NCBI GenBank assembly: GCA_964035545.1
Contig: OZ037767.1
Location: 25,901,628-25,965,627 of the forward strand
Origin: Bugula neritina
Lineage: Eukaryota > Bryozoa > Gymnolaemata > Cheilostomatida > Bugulidae
Reading direction: 5' to 3'
Length of the DNA stretch: 64,000 bases
The position numbers and the translations under genes are program-made. Each line of letters starts with the position of its first letter. Position 1 is the first letter of the stretch. Below, piece by piece: positions 13,433-64,000 of the stretch. The notes below the pieces were generated by a model that saw nothing but the letters and a program-made list of their open reading frames with translations, did not search any database and was not told the origin of the DNA.

Positions 13433-19683
<6,251 letters not shown>

Positions 19684-20480
19684 TTTTCCTGTGTAGTTGA
19701 ATAGAACAGTTTCGTATACAGTCACGTATATAAGTATAAACAGCTACTGGTTAAATAGATATACACCAACTATAGACAAATGTCTTTTCAAACTTTACCT
19801 TTCAATTATTATCAAAATAAGAAACCTGTTTAGAGATAAATGCTAGAGGTCTTGTATACATGTCTTATCTTTAATATTGTCTCTTCCCAGATAATACCAT
19901 CGGTTAGTTTGGTTGGTTCCCCTGCTCACCTCATGCTGGCAACATTTATATAACTTTTTTTTTATCTCTATAGCAGTAGATGAGATGAAACTATACTAAC
20001 CCCATAATGCTTAATGGTAGCATAATAACATAATTGTAGCGAAGTTAAGTTGCGTTTTAATGGTAAACAGTAGTCTCTTTCCTTATAATATAGTGTCTCC
20101 TATGAAGATAAGGAGACAACCACTGCATGGGATATTTGCTCACGAACGCACACGCATGTCAATCTGTTTTAAATGAGATTGAGACAGATTTTATTGAAAT
20201 ACATCACAAAACTAAATTTCAGACTTGATTAAATTGCAGAGTCTGTAAAATGATCATTTTGATAAAGTTTTAGCCATCTAGATATGTTATGTTGCTAAAT
20301 GTTAATTAAAATATTAAAAATGTCAACTTCTTTTCAATATGGCTGACTCTGCAAAAACATTGTTGTGCAGCTCATGCAACTGAAATCACATCTCCAACGA
20401 AGATGTAAATATTATTGAAGTTTTATAAACAACATGTCATATACGAAATATTAACAATAAATACAAATAACAAATAAATG
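19684..20480. other. Spacer between the two SLC17 copies
   Basis: About 800 bases separate the copy 1 start codon from the copy 2 stop codon, so both the copy 1 promoter and the copy 2 3' UTR must lie here. Sequence around both stop codons is near-identical between copies (aaataaatgttaaagtttgc), marking the duplicated end. No other feature was seen. Confidence 0.5.
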
Positions 20481-23400
20481 TTAAAGTTTGCTGTCAGTTA
20501 TAGAGGTTTCTAATTTGGGTGGTTCACCAAAATCTTCTTCATCTACAGCCCAGGGTTGAGTCTCTCCTCTCGCAAATATTAAATAGAAAATGGCTCCAAA
20601 TACAAATATGGCTGCCCAAACATAAAACACTTTCTGCCATTCTTCAGCTGTGCCCTTCAAATATTAAGCACCATAGAAGCTGTGAATATGTATGAAGACA
20701 TTAATTTAATAACATGTACTACATTATTTTAATTCTATCAACATAATATAAATTATATAGGCCTACTGGACAAATTTAAAAGGTGTGATGATTAGTGAGC
20801 TACTAGAATAAGTTATTCATGTTCTATTTTTAAACTTCTTGGTTAAACATTTATTGGTTGAAATTTATCAATATCATTTAGGTACTTGGCTTAGCCAAAT
20901 ACCACTCTTGCTTGGTAAGCACCATTTTTGGTTTCCTGTGACATTCATAATTGTTGCACAATTGGTTAAAATCCTTACTTGGTTATTTGATTAAGGAGTT
21001 GTCTGCCTTGCATAGATACAAAAAAATACCCATTTCCTAAATCAATTGATAAAATACATGCAGTGAAATCACTGCTTCTTTAGCAGCATTCTTTAATCCA
21101 GATAATAGAGCATTACTTAAACAGGGAGATAACTTACATTAGGTGTCATTGCATTCACAAGAGACGGAGCTACCATTCCAGGGATTGTTGCGAATGTGTT
21201 ACTAATTCCAAATATCTCTCCAGCATACCTTTAACGTTAAAATACCATGTTTATGAGGGCAAACTATTAAAACTGCAAAGCGAGTTTTAATGTCCATTTA
21301 TCTTCATTTTGAGGTCTTACGGCTGTAAGAATGCGACTTTATTCATAAAATTTTGTACAGGATATTTGACGGTTGTTTTGATTTTTTTAAATAAATATTT
21401 GCTAGCGCTTTTGAATTCTTTAGTTATGAACAACAAATTTTTAAACTAATAGAAGAAGTTATTATTTGTTTGAGCCAGCATTTATATGACAGAAATACAT
21501 TGTTTCATTCTAGATTGAATAAAGTCAAGTCAAATATGAGTTGTTTTTGTATAAAGAGCATTAAATTAATAGTTTACATCTGATAGCATTTGATTAAAGA
21601 ACATTCCCTCAAAACATTTAGATTATATAAACATAGATATCAATCTATAAAGTGTTGACAAAACTAAATTTTACTAGGAAAAGAATAAGTATTTGTATTA
21701 AAATAACAATTTAGAATGTGTTTTAAAGTTCTTAAATAAAAATTTGAAAAAATTGGAACATACAGCTTTCGCCACTTACTTACTTAGCAGCAATATCTTG
21801 AGGGTTGGTGTTATAACCAGACCTATTGAACCCAGTAAAACCAACAGCTATCGTTAGAAAGACAACTCCAAGATAGTTCATGTTGCATGGGACATGGCCA
21901 GTTGCAACCAAAAGTCCAGCAGGTATGACAAAGGCTGTCACGATAAACAAAAATAGATAAGAGATGAATTAAAATGTAGGTGAAGTAACATCTAAATTTA
22001 ATCATTTCAAAGTTTTTATACTTTTAATGTTTATAAAATAGTGATTGGCTTTTTCCCTGAAATGATGTGGTTAGACTAGAAGTTATTGGCTAATAAGGGT
22101 CACTTGAGTACTTATATGTAATAGTATAGTATATAGCAAAAAGTTAATAAGTATGCACTACTACAAAATTTTGCTACTTACTCAAGAAAAAGCAAATATA
22201 TAATTTTGTGTATATTCTTGGCAAAAAAATGCTCAACAAAACTTGACTGATACATTGTAATTAAAATAAAATTATTATACTTCTTTTGAAAAAGTTTTGA
22301 AAAATGTATATAATTTGCCTATATAAAATTGCTTGTTAATTTTAAATTTTTAAGCCTACCCAAAGTCATGGCTATTTTTCTGGCATTTCTTGTTGAAACT
22401 TTTTTTCTTTTCCTCAGTTCATCCACAACATTAGAAACTGTGTTAGCGGCTAGAAACATGGCGATGTATGGCAGAGTAGAGTAAAGTCCATTCTACAAAA
22501 CAAAAATATAAAGCTGGCCACATTTGGTAAAGAATTAAAAGCAAAACTCTAAGTCAGCAAATTGCTGTCTAATTATATTATCCAAAAACTGAAGCTTAAA
22601 TTTTTAACATGAACATCCATGAACTATTTTCAACCAACTTTTATTATAATTTAGATAATACTAAGTTATAGAATTGATCACCATTGACTATTGTACTGAA
22701 TAAACAGATATTTTTGTGCTTTCAGGAAAGACAACACAAAATTTTGCCGCTAAATTTGTTTTATTACAATATTTTTCAACATAGGAATAAAATTGTTTTT
22801 TAATTATGCAATTTGATGCAAGCTATGCTCAAAAAAATTAAATAAATAACATATGTTAGGAACTCACAGATTTGATATCAAACTGCAATACTTCTTTCAT
22901 AAATGCTGGGAGTTTGGTTAGCAGAGTGTAGTTTCCAAAGTTGTTACAGCAATGAGCAACAATGATGGCCCACATGGCTGGTGATTTCATGATATCGAGC
23001 CATGGTACGTGAGTATTCTGCCATTATAATACAACATACTATATGATAACAACATAACAAACATATAGAATACTATAGTTTATCATGCATTGAGTACAAA
23101 TTGATTGTAAATTACATGTTTGTGTGTGTGCGTGTAAGCGTGTGTGTGAACAATTGTAAAACCCAATCAATAATATGACAATAAATGACAATAATTATTT
23201 TTTATTTAAGCTTTGATGAGTTTCTGTTTTAGTTAGAGACTGTTACGTTGCCCACAGCTTTCACAATTTATTATAGAATGAAAAATGGTCATTCAGCTAA
23301 CTTTTAAAATTGTACACTATATATTAGTTAATTTATCTTTGTTATTATTTAATGCTATAGCTCTATTAAAACCTCATGCAGGAGCAGACAACATGCAATG

Positions 23401-26400
23401 TGAATAAGCAATAAGCATTAATAACAACATAATATATATCATATAGTAGGTCATATATCCTGTTTCTTATTACGAGGACTTTTGGAAGATTGAGTGAAAG
23501 TATTATAAAATAAAGTATGGGAAATGTACTTCATCAAACATATAAAGTGATATACATTAAGCTCAATGCATTAATTAGTAGAGGGAGTACAAGATGAATG
23601 TGTTAAAGTTAGCCGTGCAATAACAGTGTGAAGATTAATGAAGGCTAGTAGGAAATGTGCCTATGGAATGCATTACCACAATTAATCTCACCTTGTTATT
23701 GAGCAAGAATTTGACATACTCCTGCAGTACAAAATTAACAGCTATAGGCCTAAAAAACTTGAGTTGCTCATGCCATTACTGAATATGCCTTTCAACCATC
23801 TAACTGCTAACAGAATCTTTTGATATACTAATATAATAACTAATTAACAGTGTTTAGATTTGGAGGTTTTCTTCTCATGCCAAAGCACAGTGTTATTAAG
23901 TTATCTTTACACCTAGCCAAATAGTGTGGAGTATAGGACAAGACAAGAACTTTACTTTAGTCTGAAAAGTTGTGACACTAATTATTAAGGTCATTTTCTG
24001 GTGCGCTGCTTTGACAGCCGGGAAATGCTTTACTACTGATGCTCACTCTATTTGATGTTATAGGTGGTTTCCTGGTGAGTCAAGAAAATATTCCTAACTT
24101 ACAAAACGAAGCGAAGTTATATTTAAAACTAGAGTAGTATAAATATTTGAATTAAATCAAAACCATCAGTATAAAATAGACCTTTAATATCAAAAGAAGA
24201 AAAGCTATACTATTCATAATATATTATTTGATGGATTAGGATAGCATTACATTATTTTCATCAACTAACCCACTCATTCTTGATGCAGTTACAACATTAT
24301 TTATCAGTAAACAAAACCCAAACACCAGTTGTAAACAATACATCGATTTTATTTTGTTAAGATAACGACTCCAAAAGAACTTATAAGCTCACAATTAAAC
24401 AGCCTCACCTTCCCTATCTCTTTGCCTTCCATGGCCTGTTGAATGTGGAGTTTTTCCCTCCTGCTGATTCGTGGGTGGTCAGCTGGTGAGTCATAGATAG
24501 TGAAAGCCCACACAAGGCAAAACAGAAGGCATAGACCACCTCCAATATAAAACATACTTGGCCACCCACCATCAAATGACTTCCACTCACAAAAGAATCC
24601 TCCAAGACCCAGCATTAGCACATTTCCTACCTTTAAGTAATGACTTAATTTAGCAGTTTTGTTACAGAAGATTGGTCAATTATCTTAAAGTTTTTCTCAC
24701 CTATCTCCGCTTTGTACTACTCGGGTAGCGGGACTAATTATCAATTATCTTAAATATCTACTTACAAATATCAACTTTTAATACAGTTTCTATCTTTGAA
24801 TGTAGTTTATGGCTTAAGCTACAGGAAAATGAAAAACCTGTGGTTGTTGTTGTGGGACAACAAGTGATCAGTTACATGGGAAATGTGTTGTTACAGTTCT
24901 AATGAACTTGACCTCTGAGTAAATTTCACTTTCTTATTTTCAATTACGACGATTGACAACTATTAAAATGTCAACAAATAGACCACTTACCATGGTTCCA
25001 GAAAAACAGAACACTGCTAATTTACTTCTTTCATAAGGTGGAGCCCATCGGCCGAGTAAATTCTGCATAGCAGGAAAGACAACTCCAGTAGAGAGTCCAG
25101 CTATAACTCTTAATGCTATTACCAAATATGATGATACTCTGTAATTCACACCATCAAACCTAACAAAAATAAATTATATTTTTAGTGAAAGAAACAGAGT
25201 AGTCACTATAACAACAAAATGACATACTGCACAAAATTATATTTTGAAATTTCAGTTGATTTTGAGAGTCTTTTTAAACTGGTTTATGCTAAGAGTCTGA
25301 AGTTTATTGAAAGAGTCAACCACCTTTCCTTATTTTATTACATTCAGGTCAATATATTTAAAAACAACACAGTGATAATAAACAGTGTACAGAATTTGCA
25401 GTGTTTGATTAGTGTAAAACTGATGTAGTAAAAGTTGAAAAATAAGTTTAACATTATATCTCAAATGTAAATGGTGAAAAAGAAAATTTGTATTGACTAA
25501 AAATCATTTACCAAAAATAAATTAGAAACTTTATTCGCGCTTGACCAGTATATTAGACTAATTTATCAAAAAAACTGTTTAAATAAAATTCAGAGCTGAA
25601 TATTTTACATTAGTTGCTAGTTTGTAACAGAATATAATACTTTTATTTTCAAACCATCACTGCAACTATCAGGTACAAACCTGGCTGCAAATGGGGTGGC
25701 CAGCGTGACCGCCCCGTATATAATCAGTCCAACCAGCATTACTCTCTTTCCTCCAAATCTTCCAGAGAGATATCCACCAGGAATCTGAGTGACCAGATAT
25801 CCGTAGAAGAAAGAACTCAGAACCCAACCTTGGGTGGTCTTGTCCCATTCTATTTCACCTTCATTAGCCTAAAGTCCATGGACAGCCATGTGCAATTACA
25901 ATAATTACAATAATAAGCATCAGATGCAATAATAATCGCATGTAAATATTTAAAGATGTCGTATGTTAAAAAAATTAAACAAAATATGTGTAAACAGGAA
26001 AAGGCCATGTTGCAGTTAATTTAAGTTTTTTTTTAAAGTTTGATGAAACATATGAACAACTATATGTATTGTAACACCCGATTGGTGTTGGTTCAATATT
26101 ATTTGAATGGAAAATTACATTTATATGGTAAAGTTGCTTGAGTTTGCAATACAAATCATCATCTTTCAATGTGTTTACATATAGACCTTTAGGCATCAAA
26201 ATAGCTGATGCATCAGAGGCCACATGCCTGCTTGCTTACATACTTAGATTTCAATGTATGTGTTGATGCATGCCTGTATGTATGTTTGTATAATGTGCGC
26301 ATGAGTTCATGTGTATGTATGTGTGCATGTGTGTATGTGTTAGCTGTAATTAACACATGTTCATCTAATGCAGCTTCCAAATAACCTTTCCAAACTGTAG

Positions 26401-29598: not shown

Positions 29599-32270
29599 TC
29601 AAACTGAAGGATTGAAACCAGGGAAGAGGTAGAGTGTCTTACTAGGCTCCAGCCAATTGAAACAAGTCACTAACTGGCTGCCAACTCTGATACCTCTCTG
29701 TTGATATTTCTCTCTCTGCTTATTTATCTTGTGCTGTATCTGTTGACACACAAGAAACCAGCCCAATTATAAGCATACTCTTATACTTTAGGAACCTAGT
29801 CTAATCTTTACTCATTCAATCAGAATATATTGGCCAGCTAAGTAATTCCTTAAATTCAATGCGTTTCCATGACTTCACATTATGGGTATGGATGCTCGTA
29901 TAAATGAATTTATGGTGGTGGTTTCATTCGATGCAACTTTTTCCAAACATGAAAAATTCACTTGCATAATGTAAAGCTTAAAAAGGTAATAAAGTTGCAG
30001 ATGTAGGAGGGGTAAAAACTTACACTAATCTATTCAGTGAAAGTTCATGCTGAAAAGACTTGAGTTTGTAAATTGATGCACCTTGTATCTATAGAGCATA
30101 TAATGGGTTTGTAGGAATTACCTGTTTAGAGAGGTCCTCTACATGCTTATGACATGAATGTTTGTACAATGTTGATACGGTAGCTCTGATGAAAAATGAG
30201 CCAAAATTAGGATGCCGATAAGACACAAACCCTGAGAAAGAAACAAATATAAATGCAATAAAATTACTTTTAAATAAAACATTGATGTCGATGTAACAAA
30301 CATTGGGTAAAGAAAATGCGCTGGCAAACCAAAACAGCAAAATTTTAATAACTGCAAAATAGATCTTCTGTGTGAATAACAACTGAGTTGATATTTAGTC
30401 AATATTTACAGCACCCTTAGGCCAAATAAGGAGCAGCTGGGGTTAGAGTGTTGGCTTAGTTATATACGAAGTCATGGGTTCAAGTCCCATTAAAGGCCAC
30501 TGGTGATGTTAGGAAGAGCATCCAGTCATAATTGCTCCTGTGTCACACATGAATAAGTCCTTAGCCTGCTTTGAAAAAACCCTTTTCCATCAGGGTTTAT
30601 CACAGGGATAGTGACTATAAACTTGCGTGAGTTTTTTTATGCCAAGTCAATAGCATAATAAAACAAATTGAAGCAAGAGATATTCTGAGAGGTTACCAGG
30701 TGCACTGGAGTTCAAAAGATATATTCCCTGGTAAGAAGGGATTTCCCCAGGGAGAGGTATAACTGGCGGAGGTAGATCTCCTGGTTCCAAACCCTCATCT
30801 TCCGGTTGCAATAATTGACCACCATTTTCTGCGCTTGGATCAATTCTATTGTCATGTGAAAGTGGTTGATTCATTCGATCTTCCGACACTAATTAAAACA
30901 ACACAATCAATTGTTTTATTACATGTAATTGTTAATTATGTATGCAGTTTCCATACACTAGTACATTATCTTATCTGTGCTTTACTAGAATACCTCTACA
31001 CATCTATTACAATTATAAATTACAATTATGAAAAACTACAAGACAGTGAAACAAGAGCAAGAAAGTCTATAACTGCTGAAAGTTACAAGAAAAAGTTAAA
31101 CATATAATTCACTACATTATAGATTATTAGCTAATAAAAGCAACAACTTGCCTCCTGAACAGGCCTGTATGATGACCAGTTTGGGTCTACCGGCCATCTT
31201 TGTGAACTTATAGTTGGACAGCAAATCTAGGATTTCCTTTCGTTGGACAGATATTTCATCTATACCACAGATGGTAGTCTCGTCACCATGTGTCATGATT
31301 ACCAAAACAAACATACCATAGCAGCCATGTTCTTCATTTTGTGTTTCACTATGTATTGTATCTATCATTTCCTGTCAATAAAAAACACTAAAATTTAAAA
31401 GAATAAAATAATGGTTTATCATATTGTTAAATAAAAATATTATAATAACAAAAGAAACCGGCTAAAAGTAGACTAATGTGAAAATCTATTAGTCTAATAA
31501 ATTGATTACAAAGTATCCAAACATCAGTAAAGACAGCACCTATAGTTGAACCGTGAGCAAACTCATCAGTGATTGGCCAACTTAAAGAAGGTTGGACTAA
31601 CCTGTGCTGTCAAGTCTTGATGCCGTGTACAATCGAAAGCAAGCGCAGTAAAAACATTTTCAATGTTTTGCGTATCGACATCAGAACCAAGTCTAGGAGG
31701 ATCAAAGTTATAGTTGTTTATAATGAGACACCTTCCTCTATAAGGCTGAGATATCTGGTACACCTGCAAAGGTGAGAATGCATATCCAACCTGCGGACAA
31801 TGCGAAAACAGCGTTTCATAAACTTTGGTAAAGTGATCTCTTTAAATACTAAAGTGTCCATCTAGAGTGGCTCAAAATCAACCAGTTGTTTAGTTTAGAA
31901 AATTAGCCTGGTAACTTCAAAAAAATCATAAGTGATCCAACAATGAGTCAAAATGTCAAAACTACAAAGTAAATATTTTGCAAACCACAATATCTGTGTA
32001 CAGTCACGTTGACCGAGTGCCTTTGATTTATTTATAATGTAATTTCTATTTTAAAGCCAGAAACTAACTCATGCCTCCTTATAATTATCAGTATGAAAAA
32101 AGCTAAAAATCCTCATTTAAGTAGACTAACTCTATCTGATTGGTTGAAGAGTTGCCGGACATCTAGTGAAGTGCATGGCTTCATGTATATGTGAGGCTCC
32201 ATGATAGTAAGGTGGTCGTTCCTCTCATCCATAAACTCATCATCATCTGAGAAACCACCATCATCGTTAT
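29599..32270 (-). other. Caspase catalytic module (p20 and p10) of the preceding gene
   Basis: Exons 32270-32131, 31763-31602, 31371-31152, 30888-30697, 30231-30122 and 29739-29599. p20 opens with YRGRCLIINNYNF and keeps the substrate-binding Arg context PRLGSDVD (caspase-3 equivalent SRSGTDVD). The catalytic His lies in MTHGDE and the Cys in QACSG, 43 residues apart (42 in caspase-3). A long Pro/Glu-rich intersubunit linker (about 55 residues) precedes p10, which has SSAPGFVSYRHPNFGSFFI with the conserved Arg, and ends at LVTCFNWLEPSKTLYLFPG plus a short tail. All catalytic residues are present, so an active protease is expected. The acidic stretch GGFSDDDEFMDE before p20 could be a processing site (inference). 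Confidence 0.9.
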
Positions 32271-35200
32271 CTAAGAAAGCAGGAGCAAATTTACAAGACA
32301 TTTTAAAAACATCTATTTTCATTATGGAAATGGGTCATTTTATTTAATTTAGTACACACTGGAAATCTCTAATTTTTAGCTATTTTTCACAATTTAGCCA
32401 CTAAAGAAACATAGGTTTTTGCCCAACATTAGTAAAATATCAATAAATACTTCTAAGTAATCAAGGTTCTTTTTAATTTTGCTTGATTTCCCATGTTTTT
32501 CCTAATTATTCGGCTAATTTGGATTGCGGATCGTTGTTGGTTTTTTTAGTAACGGTCCGCAATCCAAATTAGCCAAATAAATAAGAAAAAACCTGGTAAA
32601 TCATGCAAAATTAAAAATAACCTTGATTATTTAGGTATATTTTTTAATATTTAACTAGTTTTGAGCAAAAACTCATGCTCATTAGCAGCTAAATTGTGAA
32701 AAATAGCTAAAAACTAGAGAGTTCCACTGTGTACTAAACTAAATACAATGAGCTAAATTAAAGTGACGCTCTCAAGCTTACAACACAGTCTGAGAATGAC
32801 ATTTACAAATAGCTGCTGTATATGGCTTTTGATTTTATAAGATTGTGCAATGAGTGAAAAAATTCGACTATGAATAAAGAACAAGTTTTTGATTATGTCA
32901 TTATGCCCATCCACAAGAATTAAATTTATAGAATCACTAAAACCATATTAATTATTAACATTGGTAATTGAATTATATATATTTAAATGAATTGCGACTT
33001 GCGTTTTTAAAAATTCCTAGTTTCTACATGTACTATGGTTTTCGAAAAAAAACATATTTTCAATTTTATTTTCAGAAATATCACTTGTTGAAAAACAAAT
33101 GTATTTTTATTTTCTATTTTTCTGTAGCCAATGAGCCTGCCAAAAGACAAGCTTACCAGACTAGTATAATTATGTAGATAACATTCTAAATTAAAACTAC
33201 ATAAATAGACGTGTGTAGGATAACTTGAACCAAATATAAAGGCTTACTTGAAGCTTGTACAGCTGTAACTGTGCTTGCTTGACCTAAAGCAAAATACATT
33301 TTGAAATTATAAAAATCCAACTACAAAAATATGTATGAAAGATACCCAACATACAGATAAAAATAACAACCATTGAGTAGAAAAATGCTCATAAAACATT
33401 TCAACATTTGTTTAAAAAAGAAGTTTTAATTTAAATTGACAAAAAACTGTTGGATTCAATTTTAACTTACTAAAACCACCCACTTATTTAAAAATGACTT
33501 TAGCTCAATTTTCCAAAGAATTTAAATTCCTGAGATTACCTTCACACATTGATGGAAAACGTTTAACCTCTTCCAAATACTTCGTCAACTGTTTGACATG
33601 ATTCTCATTTAACTCTTTACCTTAAAAGATCCAAGTTCCCATTTAAATTGAATCCAAAATTGCTAAACAAAAGCAGTAATATTATGGTACAAAGAATGCA
33701 AGCAGATACATAAAGAGTGCATGAGAATACTAAGGTATGAGCAAACGCATAGGCGAGATTATTCACCGATGTTTGTGAGGATAAAACCAGAACTTACATG
33801 GTTCAACCAATGGCAAGGGCACGTCTAGGTTGCCCTCTTTATCATTTTCCTTAAAACACTTGACCTGTGTATAACTTTTTGTACGAACATAATCAATTTC
33901 ATCTTCATTGAAATATGCCCAGTCTTTCATGGGTTGATATCCAGGCTCTTCAGCTCGAACATAGATGCAATGACAACAAAACAAATTCACCTCGGGACGA
34001 GTAGCTTTCCCGCACTTTTTAGCACAGCAGACAACCTTTTTGCATGTAATAGCTAACTTCTTCCATGACTGAGAAACCTGAGAGACTGGCGTCGTAACCT
34101 GTAGTATCAGACTGTGTTTTTTAAAGTCGTGGACCAAATGAAAGGAACATTCACCATGCTCAATAGTAGCTCCATTAGCATAGGACCATTTGTAGTACTT
34201 TTCTTCAGCATCGTTGAGCGTGTTAAACATGGCCACGGTGAGTAATTGGTGAACATACCTAGGCAAAGCTAAGCCCTTAAACAATATTTCAACTCTTAAC
34301 TGAAGCATGTTGCCAGCCTTCTTATATGAGTCATCTTTCAATTCAGGAGAGAAATATGGCAATATAAATTGAGGCCTTGGATGAGAATCAACAGGCCCGT
34401 GAACCAAGAAGAATGCTTGTAATACTTCCATCGCCACATTGTAGTCAAAGGCAGACTCGTGATCAAAGATTTGCTTTAAAACAAAGATATCAAGTATACC
34501 ATTAGTCCTAAAATTGTCTATCAAATGGTGATAATCTTCCTTATCCATCACCTTGCCATCAAAACGAACACCTTTGAATTTCTTGGCCATTTGATACCAT
34601 TCATGATAACCGGAGTGATGAAACAGCAACTTAACCATGTCAGTCACAGCCGTAATACGATGAAAAATAAAGTTCCTTAATGAGTCATGATCTTCATACC
34701 ACAAAATCCTTCCGATATTTCGCAGGTATCGAACTATGACATCAAGTTCATCTGCCCCAGAATACTTTCTCTCAAGATCAGAAAAAGTAAGAAAAGCTTT
34801 ATCTTTATTTTTCTCAATAAAGTCACCAACCTCTTGCCACCATTTTGGAATGAAGCCACTAAACTCTTGGCAATATTGTTCTAATGATTCCGTCAACTGT
34901 GAAAGATTTGGCAGGTCATCGGGGCTATCTCCTAACTCAAAGATATCAGAAAACGAAAACAATCGTCTACTAGTGTTCTCAAAGTAATCAATTTTCTGAA
35001 AGTCTTCCGGTAAGTCCAGTAACTCTTGTTCATCCAAAAATTTTTTTCGAAGTGCTTCAACATTCTCCAAAAGCTGTTCTTTTAAGGATTCGAAACTATG
35101 GGAACTATTTTCAAACTTGTCTTTGTGAGTGAGAACGAGAAGAGGGCGCTTCAACCTAGGACAATCAAGGTATAAGTGTGACAGCCAATCAAAACAAACC

Positions 35201-38200
35201 TTTTGAGTAGCTTTCTCTGGCTCATCAAATTCCAATTCAGTACGATATTGCTCCATGTTTACAACTATTAGAGGAATGCAGTGATCTTTCAGAGCCATTT
35301 GGTAGGCCATATGGTACACTTGATGGCCGCCAAAATCAACAAACCGCAAGCTACAATCTTTGAGATCAAGCTTGTTAAACTCAAAAACCTGGGTGGTGTC
35401 ATCTTTCTCTGAGCTGATGCAGCGTGTGGTAAACATCCTTCGTTTTTCTTTCAAACTACGTACCAAACTAGTCTTGCCGGACATCAACTCCCCGATGACA
35501 GCAACCGTGCCAGCAATAACTTTCACTTTACCCTTCTTTAGATCATTGTAAAACTTAAAAATCGCTCTTTTACCTTGCTCGCAAACCGCAAACGGAGGGC
35601 TATTGAGTGCCTCACAACGACGGCAGTCAATAGTGGACAGTTTTGTCAAATTTGTTAAATTCTGGTCTAAATTTTTGAGAACTTCGTTTGATTGAACAGA
35701 TCCCAAGCTGAGGACTCGTAGTTCTTTGAAAGAACAAACAACAGGAGGAAGAGTCTCAAACTTGTTCATTCCAAGACTTAATATCTCCAAATTCTTCAGC
35801 TGTGATAAACTAAAATAAATATGATGATTTTTCACATATAACGATACTTAGATTAATATTATATAATACAGATTATAACTAAAAGAATCAAGTTTTGTTA
35901 TTAGCTAATTATTGGGATATTAAAAATTCTCAGTTTGCAGAAGCTTTTGCACTTGATATTGCCAACATTAATACAATTTGTGCTAAAACATATAATATTT
36001 AGATGATAATATGCTCAGCAGTATTACCTCGCATCTATTTCTTTGAAAACATAATTTTAAAATAGTTGCTAACAAATACAAGCATTACATAACATTTCCA
36101 ACTATGCTATATCATAGTAAAGCAAATTTAGAGGGAAAAGTTTAGAAAAGTAGTTTACCTTTCAGGTAAATCGTTGAGATCACAATTTACAAGGCGAAGT
36201 GTTCTAAGTGAATGAATCTTCGCAACACCAGAGGGCAGACCTTTACTGAAATCATTATCCGACAGATCAAGGGATAGCAGACTCTCCAGGGCTTTACAGC
36301 TACAAAAACAGGGCATACTTAAAACATTAAACTGAGTGAGTAGTTAAAATTTCTTGGTAATGCCTAAATGATTAGAGCTATAATAACTTAGATGATATTG
36401 ACAAATAAATATATTTTAAATAAAGTTTGAAATATATTTTGTAAGCTTTTGAGATACACTAATAATATATGATATGAACATGCAGAGCAGACCTGTCAGG
36501 CAAACTATGGAGGTTACAGCTAGCAAGGTTCAGATCTTCTAATTCAGAGAGCTCTGCGAGGATAGGTGGTGGTGAGCCATTTTCAAAGTCATTGTAAGAA
36601 ATATCCAACTTCTTAAGACTAGTCATGAACTTGAGCCTTCAAATTGATCAATGCAGTAAATAACTTGAGTACATAAAAAACTTACTGCAGTATTAGAAAA
36701 TAGCTAACAATGAAAAGGTTTAAATATGTAAAGATGGAAACTGTTTAATAATTCGAAAGATATCCGTTTTAAAACATAACCATTAAATATAGAGAAATAC
36801 GATGATAACACAAGTTTCGTCCTAATAATTGAGGGCTCACTGTTAGTGTGAGCATAGGATAGCTTTTACACTTGACTAACTTTGGTATAATATAAAAACA
36901 CGTGTTGGCTATTCAGATCTCTGTTCCTCGCAAAGACTAAAACAGATATGGTGAGAAACGGTGAGAATAGTTTATGAACACGTCTGCATGTTCACTACTT
37001 ACGAAGGAAGGCTACGAAGATGAGATTTTTTCAGCTGAAGATCAGTAACTGATGTCAACTCAAAGATGCAGGCTGGCAGGGCACCTTCAAACCAGCTCTC
37101 GGATAAGTCTAGTGTTTTCAGCCCCACCATATTTTTCAAACTAAAGCAAGAAACAAATATATACATAATAAGCTGTACATAGCATATATAAAACAAGAGA
37201 TATGCATCCTATCTTTAACATAACAGCTTTTCTACAATAAAATATGTAAACTATACTGCTTATTTAACAATTTAATAGCTCAGATATCCTAACAACATGG
37301 TGAGTATTAACTAAAAAAGATGCAACAGGTATGATAGTAAATGCAACGCAGACTGCAACATGAAATGCTGTTTTTACATTTGTAATGCGCAATATTTCTT
37401 ATAAATTTTATAAACATTTTACAGGAATCATTACACTAATAAAACTACAGTAGCTACGTATTATGCATGCACCTAACATCTAAAGTCCGTCTATTGTATA
37501 GAAATATAGAAATGAGATGACCATATAAAATTGAAATCAGTGAAACATGCAGAGAGAGAAAATGTTTTGTGTGCCAGTTAACCACAATTACAAATATATT
37601 ATGTCATAAATAGTAAACTAAAATGAGATTAGAAATAGGTACCACTACAAGATGAAAAAACTTATAGCAGCAGTATATTAATAAAAACACATGGATACCA
37701 CTGGTTACCAGCAAACGATGTCAGTGGCAGTATTTGTATTACTAAGCTAATATGGTTAGCATTTCATATAAGAATGAGTGGCAGCTAAATTTACTTTGTT
37801 AGAGTTTACTATAGATATAATAGAGAAGGTGAGATGTTATTTACCTAGTTAAGTATGAAACTACAAATAACCATAAAATTTTAGTACTTGAGTTTTATGG
37901 AGCGTAGATATAATTCTAAGTACACTGGGAAATATAATGAACAAAAATATTATGTTATATAATATATGTTATAGATGTTACACAGGGTTAGCCAACAATT
38001 ATGTAATGTTTATAACTCTATTGCATTTAGCACAATGATCAATTATTATTAAATATAAAATTTAAATATAAAAGTTAAAAGTTTGAACACTGGTGATGCT
38101 AATCAATCATATTTTATTACAGGAAACCCTAACCTCTCATCACCTTATTTCTTGGAAAAGTAATACTGATAAAAATTGAGTAAGTGGGTTAATAAACATA

Positions 38201-39912
38201 TTCAAAATGATAAATGCAGAGTAAACAAATAATGAAATGACAGCAACAATATATACTTGATAAACCTGTACATATGATCCCACTACCCAAACAGGACAAA
38301 GTAGAGATATGTGAGGAAACCTGTACACATGATGCAAATGTTCCAACAGAATAACTTGTGTGTTTCTCTGTACTATATAGCATACATGTATATGTGATTT
38401 ACTCCATATAACATTGGCAGCAACATGGGGGCATGTTTATATCCAGAGGCACTACATATATCTTTATATTGACACAACACATATACTTACTCATACTATA
38501 TGCATACGTAGAGACACACTGGTGTAAAAATTGCCTTTCTATAGAATATGCTATATTTAGAGAAAAAAAACTGTATCTAGTAAATGAATTGTGTCTATAA
38601 ATAGTTTTAATCTAGCGAAACAGCTTATTTTATTCCAGAATATTTATTAATGAAGGACATGGTGTAAGGTTTGTTCCAGAATACTTATTTCACAAAGGAA
38701 ACAAAGCCAAGTATATTAGAGGTACCTGGAAGGAAGAGAAGAGAGTTCAGAGCGAGTAATTCTAAATACGCTAAGGTTGGACAAATCTGAAATGTAGTCA
38801 GGAATGCCATTCGGAAATTTACTGTCATTGATGTGCAGTGTTTGTAGTGATTTGAACCTACAACGCAAAACAGTTGTAGCACTAGGGTGACATTTTAGTA
38901 ACTAGCAGAAATTCAACTCTAACAAACTCTAATACTGAGCTAAAACAGTGTAATCTATATAGTTTAGATGAAATACAAAAACTAGGACTCATCAGGATAA
39001 AATTAATTATATATATATGCAAACGTACAAAATCACTAAATACGAACTTGAAAACCATTTTCTTAGCAACCATAAAAAAACAATGAAATGCAAAAAATTT
39101 TAAACTAAGGATAAAATAAACAAAACATAAAAACTGACTGCGAATTTTATATCTCTTAGATAACTATAAAATAATTTTTAATAAGCACTAACTTTCCTAA
39201 CACTGGTGGGAAAGCATTGATATTTTCCACTAGCATGTTGGTAACATGAGGAGCGACAGTATCTAATGAATCAGGGGGATCTCCTCTGATACACAAGTGT
39301 GTTATGATGTCATCTCCAACTTCCTCTTTCAACTCAGCCATGGTGATGCGTCTCAAATCCATCTCATCAGTCCGAGGCATCTCTGATAAGTTAGCATCAT
39401 CCAGAGCATACCAGACAAAAAACGTCGGACCTAACAAAACCAAATATATCTTATTCAGAATCAATTTATGATTCTAAAAATATGTTTTTAAACAAAATGG
39501 TTATTCCTAAAACAAGAAATTCACAAATATATATTAGTTTTATTCAACATGTAAACTATGGTAAACATTTTAAAAGCATATTAAACTTATTAAAATTCTT
39601 TCTAAATACTCATAACTCAATTATTTACTAACCTGTCTAACAATAACCCGATACAACTTGATACAACAAAACAGCTCAGTTAGTGTCATTAATCAAGTCA
39701 AAGACTAGCATTATATCATGTAATTCTAAGATACTATTCAATAATTTATCTCTATTTTCTACAGACTGTTGATCAATATATTATCTTAACTCACCAAAAC
39801 TATCAAAACCACCAACATACGAAGTTGGGAAGTCGTTAACAGGAACTTTGTTTATGGGCCTCACTTTTGGGCAAACCGCTTTCCGCTTCTTGTTTTTCTG
39901 CTGCTTACTCAT
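29599..39912 (-). CDS. Predicted LRR-ROC-COR-caspase (Roco-caspase) protein
   Basis: Fifteen exons join without a frame break to 1,334 residues: 39912-39795, 39430-39193, 38857-38726, 37140-37003, 36636-36493, 36299-36159, 35809-33798, 33620-33540, 33283-33248, 32270-32131, 31763-31602, 31371-31152, 30888-30697, 30231-30122 and 29739-29599. Order: basic N-terminus; LRRs (~120-400); ROC GTPase with P-loop GELMSGKT (410-417), DFGG (462-465) and THKD (531-534); COR (~615-915); a Cys-rich patch (CCAKKCGK, FCCHC); an acidic linker; then caspase p20 and p10 with catalytic His1142 (MTHGDE) and Cys1185 (IIQACSG). Roco proteins are GTP-regulated scaffolds; caspases cleave after Asp. The fusion rests on phase agreement through two short exons (81 and 36 nt). 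The alternative is two genes, with the Roco stopping at 33763 and a caspase starting at an ATG at 32322 or 32301. Confidence 0.62.
30431..30645 (+). mobile_element. tRNA-derived SINE, copy 2
   Basis: The head GAGCAGCTGGGGTTAGAGTG contains a pol III A-box-like segment, and GGTTCAAGTCC (30477-30487) is a near-consensus B box. The body (TGATGTTAGGAAGAGCATCC, CATAATTGCTCCTGTG, CCATCAGGGTTTATCAC) matches the 44.4 kb copy closely. It lies in the intron between exons 30888-30697 and 30231-30122 of the caspase module, opposite to transcription. Confidence 0.82.
32338..32748. mobile_element. Long near-perfect palindrome (foldback MITE)
   Basis: Two arms of about 195 bases flank a 10-20 base centre. 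The outer ends read TTTAGTACACACTGGAA on the left and TTTAGTACACAGTGGAA on the complementary strand of the right; the inner arms share TTGGATTGCGGA. Arms differ at scattered positions, so it is not newly inserted. The element sits in the intron before the first caspase exon, ending about 70 bases from it. No open frame. Target duplication is unclear. Confidence 0.8.
33763..35835 (-). other. Large ROC-COR exon of the Roco gene
   Basis: One 2-kb open stretch encodes the last LRRs, the whole ROC GTPase and COR. The exon itself is 35809-33798. Frame-open sequence extends to a stop at 33763, but a perfect GTAAGT donor at 33797 is followed by phase-compatible exons. The ROC has the G1, G3 and G4 motifs, so nucleotide binding is expected. 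No kinase domain follows, unlike LRRK1/LRRK2. The arrangement before the caspase resembles MFHAS1-type or DAPK-type Roco proteins. Confidence 0.93.
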
Positions 39913-44575: not shown

Positions 44576-47500
44576 ATGCAAAGATTGCCATCATCTCTAG
44601 CATCACCTGAATGGGAGCTTATTGATCCAACTCCAGATCCTGTTGCTTTGTTCTTAGCATATAACCAACAGTTCTTTTGGGGAAAGCTTGAGTCTGTTAT
44701 TGTTAAATGGAGTCCTCAAATGACTTCGTAAGTAGAGTACCGATAAAATATTCAGTTATGACATTTCTATTGATATAACAAATTTTTAGCAAGAGTAGAT
44801 TTCACTTGTCAAATACACTTTGTAAATGTTTTTTGTCAAGATGTATGTTATTGCTGTAACTTTTAGATAAAAATTATATATGTGTATGTCATCTCTTGAT
44901 TCTAGCATACTTATGCCTTAAATTACTAGATGTAACACACATTAAAATGTAAAAAATATGTTTCTATTTAGTATAAAACAACATTCAAATTTCTTTGCAA
45001 ATCATTGCATTTATTCATCAACTGAAACTAGGTGAAAATGAAAAGTCAACAGAAGCAAATTCTTCACTGAAATATACACAGTGTATTTACTGGAAATGAT
45101 TTATAACCTTGACATTGCATTAGTGTTTAATACCTGCAGGTGTGCGGGTATCTGCTCATATGAAGGTAGGGGTGGTTTGTGTACAATCAGCCTGAGTGCC
45201 CCGCTACTGAAGTTACGACCCCGTAAAGATCTTGTAGAAACTCTACTACATGAAATGATACACGCCTATCTCTTTGTAACACAAAATAATCGTGACAGAG
45301 ATGGTCATGGTCCAGAATTCCAAAAACACATGCATCGAATTAGTTCAGAAGCTAAGATCAATATTACAGTGAGTTTTTAATTGTTGGTGGCATTTTTATG
45401 AGACTGGTGTAGCACAGCATTAAAATGTAAATGGTGCCTATTTCTATCCTAGCCATTTCCTTGTATTCTAAGCTAAATGTGGTGTTTATTTTGCAGTTAG
45501 AGTATAGGAGATCGATGTTTGTAAGATAGCATGGCACATTGTACCCAATAATTAAATGTTTTGCATTTGAAAATTTTATTGAATCTAATCAAAGTGTCTA
45601 TCTAACAGTCTGTAGTCCAATGATGTGGTTTTATGTTACTTTTTTTGCTTTAGTGGTAGTGACTAATACTTTGTAAATTAATCATCATTCATTTTCCAGT
45701 CTTTACCTTGTAGATTTACCATTCATTCAGAGACGAGGTCCGTCACTATCAGACTCATGTGTGGAAGTGCAATGGTCCGTGTCAGCACACTAAACCGTTT
45801 TATGGTATATTGAGGAGGTCACGGAATAGGCCTCCTGGACCCAATGATTTCTGTAAGTTTTTAGTGGTTGGGTCTAACTTGTACATAGGGAGTCTGACTT
45901 TGTGTCACTAAACAATTCTTGCAAAGCTAGCTATATCATCACGGTGCCACAGGATTTGCTTTTATTAGGTATGTTGACTTTTATACCTCCAGTTGTGCAT
46001 AGTACGGCATAGTTGTACTGGCTGACAAGATCATGAATGGTCTGGTGTTAAGGCAGCTACAATATCTCTTATCTTTGAGCATTCAAAAGCTTAAAGAGCA
46101 CTTCATTTGAAACAAAATGGCAGGCTGTTGATAACTAGCAACAGCATAAATTAATATTATTTCACTATGTGGTTTGTTTAATAGAAAATCTATATGATAA
46201 TTTATGCGTTAAATGCTTTGCTATATGTGAGAACACATTAATTGTAATTTGGTGCTTTGTCCTTTTTAGGGTGGTCAAGACATCAGGCATCATGTGGCGG
46301 AAAATACGTAAAGATCAGTGAACCCGAAGAGTTTACGAAGAAGCAGCAAGTGAAACGTAAATGCTGTAACTTCTCTTTACAAAATAGTGATCAATAGTCT
46401 GTCAACCATTGTATTTCCTCATCCTACACTATTCGATGATGTTAACACCTGTCGCTTTCAGCAGCTAAAATACTTGGCACAGTGTTTTCACTCTGCTTCT
46501 TGTAATACATCTCAATTTTAAATTTTTCAATTTTAATTGACTTCAGACAAAAAGAATTATTACGCATTTATGTAAAAAGCTTGTGTAGCAAGTTGTTTTT
46601 GCAAACTTTCATGTAAATTACATCTAACTTACCAAGAAAATTTTACATCTAACATCTGACACAGTCTCGCTGTTCTAGCTCATAAATTAATATACAATTC
46701 GCCACAAAATGTATTTAATTTTTTGTAGAGTCTAAAATTGAAGCTAAGCGTAAAAAGGAAGATGCAAAAAACAAATCAAAGATTACCAACTTTTTTCCGA
46801 CTAGTCCAGCACAAAAGGTGGGTGGAGTATATTTAGTAAGAAAATTGTCTAATTTACTTAATCAAATCAAATGGTTTGTTACGCAACACCTGGTGGTATT
46901 TGACAAAAGACCTGAGATGGATTGTTACTATACTCATACATATTGCACTTGTAAGACTAAACATATATTCTATATGCAGTCATGCTGTGTGTTATGTTTA
47001 TGTGTTTCCCAGTAACAACAGGTGAAGGCCATCGCCAATCAAACTTATTTATTCATTTTTGACTAATAATAACAGACCACAATAGATTTCACCAATTAAA
47101 TATTTTCTTGATATCTTCCCACTATAAAAATGTGTTGCTGAATGTGAATATATATTTTATTTTTACAGGGAAATTCTGTTCCGCCTTGTAACAACACACG
47201 CAGTAATAACATAACTCCAACAACTAAAATAACTCCACGTGGTAACACAACTCTAAGTAATAATATAGGGAGTCGACTAGGTGGAAACTCTTCCATTTCA
47301 AAGGTGAGACTAAAGTCTCATTACCCAGTTTCAATTTTAGTTTCTAAATCATCTATTTCCTGTTTGAGCCAGCAGCAGAACTTCATTTGTGTGTTTAATC
47401 ATAAAAGATTTTTATTCCAAAACATACAGCAAAGCAGTGTATCGAGATTTTATTTTATATTATTTTTTTCAAATGCCTGAGAAATTTATAGCTGTAGTTA

Positions 47501-49704: not shown

Positions 49705-50722
49705 CTCAGTGTTTTTTAAACTGAATATAGTATTTTTAAAGTTGTGAGACAGTTGTTTTTTCTTTTCCAACTTTTTGGTGCTAATAAGATGCTATTTTGT
49801 ACCAGTTTTTAATTGTGAACAATCTCTGAAATATATATATTTTACTTTAACAATATCTGGTAATGCTCTTGCTCTAAGCAAATAAATGTGGTTGAAATTT
49901 TTCATTGTATTCAAATAATGCCTCCGTGTTGTTCTAGAAACTTATTGTAGAAGTAATTTCAATGAGCTTTTAATTCCAACTAAGAGTTGTTTTCTCAGTT
50001 GTTACTGGGTTCCTATTACAGCTGCTATTCTAAGGTTAAATTATATAGATATCAATCACAGTAAGGCTGTCAAGCTCATTGGGAACCTAATGCATGCTTA
50101 CTCATTTGTCAAAACACATTCAAGTGTGGCCTGTGACTGCAGATAGGTGTATAAATAATAGAATGTAGGTAAGTTAAGTTGTTTTATCAAATGTAAATAA
50201 TTAGGAATAGTTGTACAATACTGATAATGTTTTCTCTTGTATTTGCTATATATTTATTTTATGAAGACTAAATCAATTCATAACACTTGCCTTTTAGGCT
50301 GTTATTTACTTTAAGGAAAGCTGTACTATCTAGTATTCTATTGTAATTCTTTAAATCATCTTCCATAAATATTTTTCATTGCTGAGTGAAATATCAAATT
50401 TAATGGTTATAATATACTTTATTTTTATTGTGGCGTATTTTTGAAGATTTACATGTGATGGGCCCATTTTATGATTATTATATTTCTGAAATTTTATATT
50501 GTATTTGTCTTTTAGATTAGACGTTTGTGAACACAAGGCATATAAGTGGATTAAATTTTAAGACAAAAATCGGAGTGAAGGTGTACCTTCTTTTTCTACT
50601 GACCTCGTAGCAAGTTGGATATCATTTAGACTGGACTCCCTTCTGTAGAAGAGTCATGCACTTCCTTTCACGGCAGAGTTCTTACTGTTAACAACTTAAA
50701 TTTTACTTCCTTTGCATGCATA
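49705..50722. other. Intergenic region SPRTN to agrin
   Basis: Same-strand spacer of about 1 kb. It should hold the agrin promoter and 5' UTR. No repeat or RNA gene is recognised. The sequence becomes less AT-rich in the last 150 bases before the agrin start. Confidence 0.4.

Positions 50723-64000
<13,278 letters not shown>

Follow-up and report, generated by a model that had tools for sequence, protein, structure and literature searches.

In the NLR inflammasomes and the CED-4/APAF1 apoptosome, a sensor and a nucleoside triphosphate switch lead to a caspase. The switch in these systems is a NACHT or NB-ARC domain, whereas the gene described here, on the minus strand at 29599..39912 of a 64,000 nucleotide (nt) window from the bryozoan Bugula neritina (assembly GCA_964035545.1, contig OZ037767.1, positions 25,901,628 to 25,965,627), encodes a GTPase of the ROC-COR (Roco) type with a caspase in the same chain. 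Among animal Rocos, LRRK1 and LRRK2 end in a kinase-WD40 part; the bryozoan protein has its caspase at that position and no kinase match. MFHAS1 (MASL1) has the leucine-rich repeat (LRR)-ROC-COR core without a kinase in common with the bryozoan protein and is not known to carry a protease; its name is also the one given at NCBI to several of the Watersipora relatives considered below.

Bacterial conflict proteins with LRR-ROC-COR (AP-GTPase) and a C-terminal caspase have been described (Kaur et al. 2021, PMC8195603). They are reported to resemble the bryozoan proteins in the order of their domains, in having several paralogues in a genome and fast-evolving LRRs, and in a proposed role in countering invaders. 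In the bacterial system at least 24 domains, the caspase among them, can occupy that position, whereas the bryozoan caspase is nearest, among solved structures, to animal ones and the fusion is found in two genera. Brown algal ROCOs are reported to have phase-2 LRR exons, exon shuffling and diversifying selection in common with the bryozoan genes, but their LRR exons are of 72 nt with one repeat rather than 132-144 nt with two, and the C-terminal peptidase found in three of them is IPR009003 instead of a caspase (PMC11378527). Rocos with TIR are reported from Aplysia (PMC9334734) and with kinase, Death or TIR from sea anemones (PMC5094078), and Branchiostoma protein P0049 is a Roco with a Death domain. 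All of these combine ROC-COR with immune or death modules, but no caspase was found in the passages and protein rows examined. Neither an animal Roco-caspase nor innate sensors in the bryozoan phylum were found described in the open-licence papers searched. An earlier note on this DNA had claimed that no metazoan Roco with a caspase was known. This held in the literature searched, but unremarked gene models of the same architecture exist in public annotation, namely several MFHAS1-like proteins of Watersipora subatra and B. neritina EB796_012341 (labelled CASP8).

Gene structure and domains

The gene model (window on C3) was reproduced exactly on re-splicing: 15 minus-strand exons in one frame give 4,005 nt including the stop, as previously claimed, and a protein of 1,334 amino acids (aa). 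Its features are as follows.

39795..39912, minus strand: exon 1, start codon at 39912, window protein begins MSKQQK
39193..39430, minus strand: exon 2, N-terminal domain (VWY...ITHL), compared by eye with Watersipora N-termini
38726..38857, minus strand: exon 3, two LRRs, phase 2-2
37003..37140, minus strand: exon 4, two LRRs, phase 2-2
36493..36636, minus strand: exon 5, two LRRs, phase 2-2
36159..36299, minus strand: exon 6, two LRRs, phase 2-2
33798..35809, minus strand: exon 7, 2,012 nt, last LRRs with the whole ROC GTPase and COR, donor conserved in paralogues
33540..33620, minus strand: exon 8, linker ELNENHVKQLTKYLEE, homologues in Watersipora and B. neritina EB796_012341
33248..33283, minus strand: exon 9, 36-nt linker, frame-neutral
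32335..32751, no strand assigned: nested inverted repeats in intron 9, arms of 98, 73 and 40 nt, 82-90% complementary
32131..32270, minus strand: exon 10, acidic linker NDDGGFSDDDEFMDE leading into VRQLF
31602..31763, minus strand: exon 11, first part of caspase p20, Arg1069
31152..31371, minus strand: exon 12, caspase p20 with His1142 (31288-31290) and Cys1185 (31159-31161), GC donor
30697..30888, minus strand: exon 13, intersubunit linker rich in proline and acidic residues
30122..30231, minus strand: exon 14, caspase p10, Arg1257 (30215-30217)
29599..29739, minus strand: exon 15, end of p10 and stop

Exon 1 is the least certain exon because no homologue of it was found in the comparisons made. 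The sequence of exon 2 can be set by eye beside the N-termini of Watersipora P0001 and P0006, which carry VWYRH...ITHM/ITHI. Since exons 3-6 (132-144 nt) are all of phase 2-2 with two repeats each, the LRR arrays can vary in length while the frame is kept, as those of brown algal ROCO genes do with exons of 72 nt (PMC11378527). The nested inverted repeats of intron 9 are interpreted as an insertion resembling a miniature inverted-repeat transposable element.

The protein thus runs from the N-terminal domain through the LRR array, ROC GTPase, COR and acidic linker to the caspase. A Pfam scan gave PF00656 at 3.2e-36 for the caspase and 25.8 bits for Roc, slightly under the cut-off of 27, and phmmer matched the caspase to CED-3 at 5.7e-26. 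The p20 and p10 parts, the His-Cys dyad and the S1 arginines (R1069, H1142, C1185, R1257) are all present, as are the P-loop GxxxxGKT, the G3 motif DxGG and the G4 motif THxD of a Roco protein, with COR directly after ROC. The earlier description of an LRR-ROC-COR protein fused with a caspase whose His, Cys and Arg are intact is supported. His, and Cys within QAC, are kept in the window gene, in Bugula loci L041, L042 and L043 and in the nine Watersipora rows extending over this site; because of these residues the window caspase looks active. The closest solved structures are animal CED-3 and caspases 9 and 3, and on these structure matches, rather than on a caspase tree, an origin from a metacaspase or a bacterial caspase is not favoured.

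The same Pfam scan (E 0.1) found in the window protein no kinase family, unlike the LRRK kinases, none of the features of DAPK (a kinase at the N-terminus, ankyrin repeats and a Death domain), none of the death-fold prodomains (CARD, DED or Death) of the initiator caspases, no NACHT or NB-ARC, in whose place ROC stands, and no adaptor domain in the chain. NCBIfam matches were to LRR-type and GTPase families only.

A family of adjacent ROC-COR and caspase exons

The genome was searched in six frames with the window's ROC-COR exon, and 66 of 138 candidates were scored; for a separate pairing of ROC matches with caspases, 104 of the 150 ROC matches listed were used (103 on the nine large scaffolds and one on C58). 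Merging 150 of 176 C14 matches gave 120 caspase loci. All family counts are lower bounds. The scored exons, the window itself excepted, are 32-38% identical to the window exon. A C14 match lies downstream on the same strand within 8 kb in 52 of the 66, at a median of 1.46 kb, and in none was a caspase found upstream or on the opposite strand. In 500 trials in which the caspases were shifted along the chromosomes, such pairs averaged 0.4 and never exceeded 15, against the 52 observed, and chance adjacency was rejected.

When the first 20 loci were read, ROC-COR followed by caspase exons was found in order in 19; the other, L023, has no caspase in the stretch read and a candidate 8.5 kb away. 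Ten of the initially unpaired caspase loci were sampled and six had a ROC-COR exon within 5 kb upstream. Together, a same-strand ROC-COR exon lies upstream of at least 63 of the 120 caspase loci, and these 63 are spread over eight of the nine large scaffolds, with 24 on C6 and 22 on C1. The fusion claimed in the earlier note is supported, but that note treated a single gene and did not foresee that it is one of dozens.

One gene or two

The junctions between the COR exon and the caspase were compared with those of relatives. A protein search returned ten proteins, all of Watersipora subatra and nine of them with PF00656. Exon 8, ELNENHVKQLTKYLEE, aligns with FQLHKDEVEMLKSYLADLK of Watersipora P0001, and exon 10, NDDGGFSDDDEFMDE, with SDLSDVEEEGYCDH of the same protein. 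EB796_012341 (P0022), which comes from an independent annotation of B. neritina, has 623 aa and is 87% identical over aa 695-1334; it reads across the junction of exons 7 and 8, where its residues are those of the window gene. That annotation is reported to have been built by AUGUSTUS with transcriptome hints, which may have covered this junction (PMC7576161).

Exon 7 ends at a phase-1 donor, T/GTAAGT (33798), and a donor is found at the same phase-1 place in 26 of the 29 paralogous COR exons read (23/26 and 3/3). It is mostly CCAT/GTATGT or GTAAGT, while the next stop lies anywhere from 1 to 27 codons beyond; the motif is missing in L024, L034 and L035. In L018, the one paralogue spliced by hand, four hand-placed GT/AG junctions preserve the frame from COR to p20 by way of a linker exon and an acidic exon, and the counterpart of exon 9 is unused. 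Of the 17 paralogous loci in which the first p20 exon was found, 12 have a homologous acidic exon between COR and p20. A hidden Markov model search for the linker was weak, with 10 pieces over the inclusion threshold, and those in L020 and L021 (2.1-2.7 kb past the donor) are at unlikely places.

Several observations weigh against the fusion. Between late exon 8 and early exon 10, EB796_012341 is read in a frame other than that of the window gene, and the two agree again from VRQLF. This stretch is where the evidence for the linker is weakest, and the discrepancy could reflect a difference between species, an error in the draft or an error in the model. P0015, an open reading frame on a contig that is 97% identical to exon 7, continues beyond the donor to a stop; it looks like unspliced DNA because the frame also starts in intron 6 sequence. 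The Watersipora model P0009 adds fn3 repeats and a C-terminal hydrophobic stretch to a Roco-caspase and is probably a merge with a neighbouring gene, so that single automatic models are no proof of fusion, and the model of P0002 is of moderate quality. Six Watersipora rows with ROC-COR (P0010, P0016, P0018, P0019, P0024, P0029) have no caspase domain listed, 14 of the 66 scored ROC-COR exons lack a caspase in the list used, and four of the ten sampled caspase loci have no ROC-COR within 5 kb upstream.

The in-frame stop at 33763 shortly past the exon 7 donor and the tendency of automatic annotation to merge neighbours, as in P0009, speak for two neighbouring genes, one with LRR-ROC-COR that ends at 33763 and another, from about 32.3 kb, for the caspase. 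However, the donor is kept among paralogues while the distance to the stop varies, the linker exons are homologous between genera and among paralogues, EB796_012341 crosses the junction in an annotation made with transcript hints, and the same-strand adjacency of the 52 copies is reversed in none. The two-gene model was rejected on the donor, the linkers and EB796_012341, and we regard it as very improbable indeed. Separate transcripts, one of them ending after 33763, had been named in the earlier note as what would overturn its claim; the homologous junctions in relatives speak against them and, as far as sequence can tell, the window locus is one gene encoding one protein and the fusion is real and recurrent.

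Age and distribution of the fusion

A ROC-COR tree of 49 rows, for which the program warned of long branches including that of the window gene, groups the 45 bryozoan rows at 100/100 apart from the four outside rows used. Clade A (98/98) contains the window gene, three Bugula loci (L041-L043) and ten Watersipora rows; clade B (96/94) contains the other 25 Bugula loci and six other Watersipora rows. The same two clades are recovered without L041-L043. Inside clade A the window gene sits on a long branch by itself. Counting the window gene, clade A has at least four copies in this genome, where the family as a whole has at least 63 loci. Fused proteins occur in both clades in Bugula as well as in Watersipora, so the fusion probably predates their split. 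A wider alignment search gave 43 proteins at E 1e-8, with PF00656 only in rows named Watersipora or Bugula; this search scored only the 7,995 candidates sharing most words, was limited by words and length and included many rows that are contigs without an organism name, and absence of the fusion from other phyla is not shown by it.

Variation at the catalytic site

Among the loci read, the p20 Arg is kept in 21/21, His in 20/20 and the p10 Arg in 14/17, where Ile replaces it in two and Ser in one. Cys is kept in 15/20, with Ser in L024-L027 and L029. One of these 20 loci, L037, has no ROC-COR in the stretch read; dropping it and adding L041-L043 leaves 22 ROC-COR-linked loci with the active-site exon read, of which 17 keep Cys. 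At the active site three of the 22, all in clade A, have the motif QAC, 15 have EAC and four have HAC. The EAC and HAC loci are clade B loci of Bugula (L011-L022, L024-L030) and clade A loci L041-L043 keep QACSG. A change from QAC to EAC or HAC may alter the S1 pocket and the substrate preference. The GTPase positions tested are kept in 26/26 paralogous exons. Watersipora P0003 has DxAG, with Ala for one G3 Gly, and P0006 has Lys for the p10 Arg.

The group with Ser for Cys (L024-L027 and L029, in the C6 cluster) is under purifying selection, with omega 0.24 for p20. These loci are likely to be pseudo-proteases under constraint and are candidate decoy caspases.

Selection between clade B paralogues

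Omega for ROC-COR was 0.15-0.40 in 49 close pairs, and pooled values for the caspase were 0.20 for p20 (28 exon pairs) and 0.27 for p10 (17 exon pairs); p10 gave 0.63 among pairs in which both keep Cys, on two exon pairs only. The ROC-COR and caspase exons are under purifying selection. The LRR exons gave a pooled omega of 1.43 with a bootstrap interval of 1.14-1.91 (42 exon pairs, 14 locus pairs), the interval being optimistic because locus pairs share loci and exon partners were chosen by best match. In three smaller sets omega was 2.92 (5 exon pairs), 1.56 (10) and 1.27 (10). The differences are concentrated, 200 of 321 amino-acid changes falling at 8 of 43 positions; these are the x positions of two LxLxxNx strands, which from LRR geometry we take to be the concave face. 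Positions 17, 19, 30 and 40 of the block are also often changed. The LRR sensor face is under diversifying selection. The family shows two features of immune receptor families, lineage expansion and, measured in clade B, diversifying selection on the putative ligand face; its dozens of members look like innate immune receptors that have gone unrecognised.

Proposed function and its alternatives

What the sequence shows, namely a single-gene architecture with a conserved linker, the size of the family, catalytic and GTP-binding residues that are intact and the pattern of constraint, points to a one-chain innate receptor in which recognition by the LRRs drives Roco dimerisation and caspase activation, and this explanation we consider probable. 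A ligand would bind the LRRs, most likely on the concave face, and would release or drive a GTP-dependent change in ROC-COR dimers, as in known Rocos. This would bring together two caspase domains, which would activate by proximity and cleave their own acidic and intersubunit linkers at Asp residues; proteolysis would then end in cell death or inflammation without a CARD or DED adaptor. Watersipora P0001, P0006 and P0010 begin MGAKSS, MGCSLS and MGNGQS, which look like N-myristoylation sites, and these N-termini suggest placement at the membrane there; the window protein begins MSKQQK. If the proposal is true, this would be an animal receptor bearing its own death protease without an adaptor, and a large receptor family in the bryozoan phylum; animals would have reached an architecture that bacteria use in conflict systems. 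The family would also be a natural setting in which to ask how an effector is controlled by a Roco GTPase switch, an issue at the heart of LRRK2 function, and protease activity would be simple to read out.

The proposal has to meet the fact that Ser replaces the catalytic Cys in 5/22 linked loci, where p20 is nevertheless constrained, and that 19/22 lack the QAC motif. The fusion could be real with the caspase acting mainly as a pseudo-protease scaffold or decoy, like c-FLIP, and the Roco half signalling, and about 70% of effector-position caspase domains in some bacterial conflict systems are reported to be inactive (PMC7159879). Given that the window gene, three other clade A loci and nine Watersipora rows keep QAC, His and Cys, and that most linked loci keep Cys, this is unlikely. 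Selection was measured on a set that does not include the window gene, and a reading in which only the expanded clade B is immune and the window gene regulates developmental cell death (zooid degeneration, metamorphosis) would suit its own long branch, its canonical caspase motif and the identity of only 37-38% to the closest loci in the same genome. It is a shade less likely again, since the window gene is not a sole copy, clade A having at least four Bugula copies and ten Watersipora rows, and its two-repeat LRR exons are also seen in clade B. A large clustered family with a variable LRR face in a colonial animal could instead serve allorecognition rather than detection of pathogens, but nothing connects the loci to colony fusion or rejection, and we judge this improbable.

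A wider proposition, held as a possibility at somewhat under an even chance, extends the one-chain receptor: cheilostome bryozoans may largely have swapped the NLR/apoptosome route for a large and rapidly diversifying LRR-Roco-caspase repertoire, an animal counterpart of the bacterial systems that arose independently of them, in which active members and Cys-to-Ser decoys cross-regulate. The six-frame, exon-by-exon search of the genome gave one partial match to NACHT, none to NB-ARC, 11 to Death and 4 to CARD. These counts are indications because of the way the search was made and because the reported BUSCO completeness of the assembly is 83.4% (PMC11480708). They fit Roco-caspases doing much of the work of an NLR-caspase pathway.

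Neighbouring genes and other observations

Elsewhere in the window, at 45042-45377, 50630-51223, 60119-61213 and 17972-24675, there are a SprT-like (SPRTN-like) gene, agrin-type NtA then Kazal domains, and minus-strand MFS transporter exons. Three partial gasdermin exon matches lie in G000:C2:2048552-4312395 and are possible caspase targets. A CARD match about 1.8 kb upstream of a ROC match on the same strand, G000:C2:9943461-9945862, may mark a CARD-Roco gene. The ROC-COR exon at G000:C1:33884653-33886500 sits in an open frame of 2,363 aa, its kin being in frames of about 680-750. The best-scoring ROC matches (up to 115 bits) are on short scaffolds (C58, C90, C99 and others), above the bryozoan family, and are possibly from a cobiont; a labyrinthulid bin has been reported for B. 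neritina (PMC7576161).

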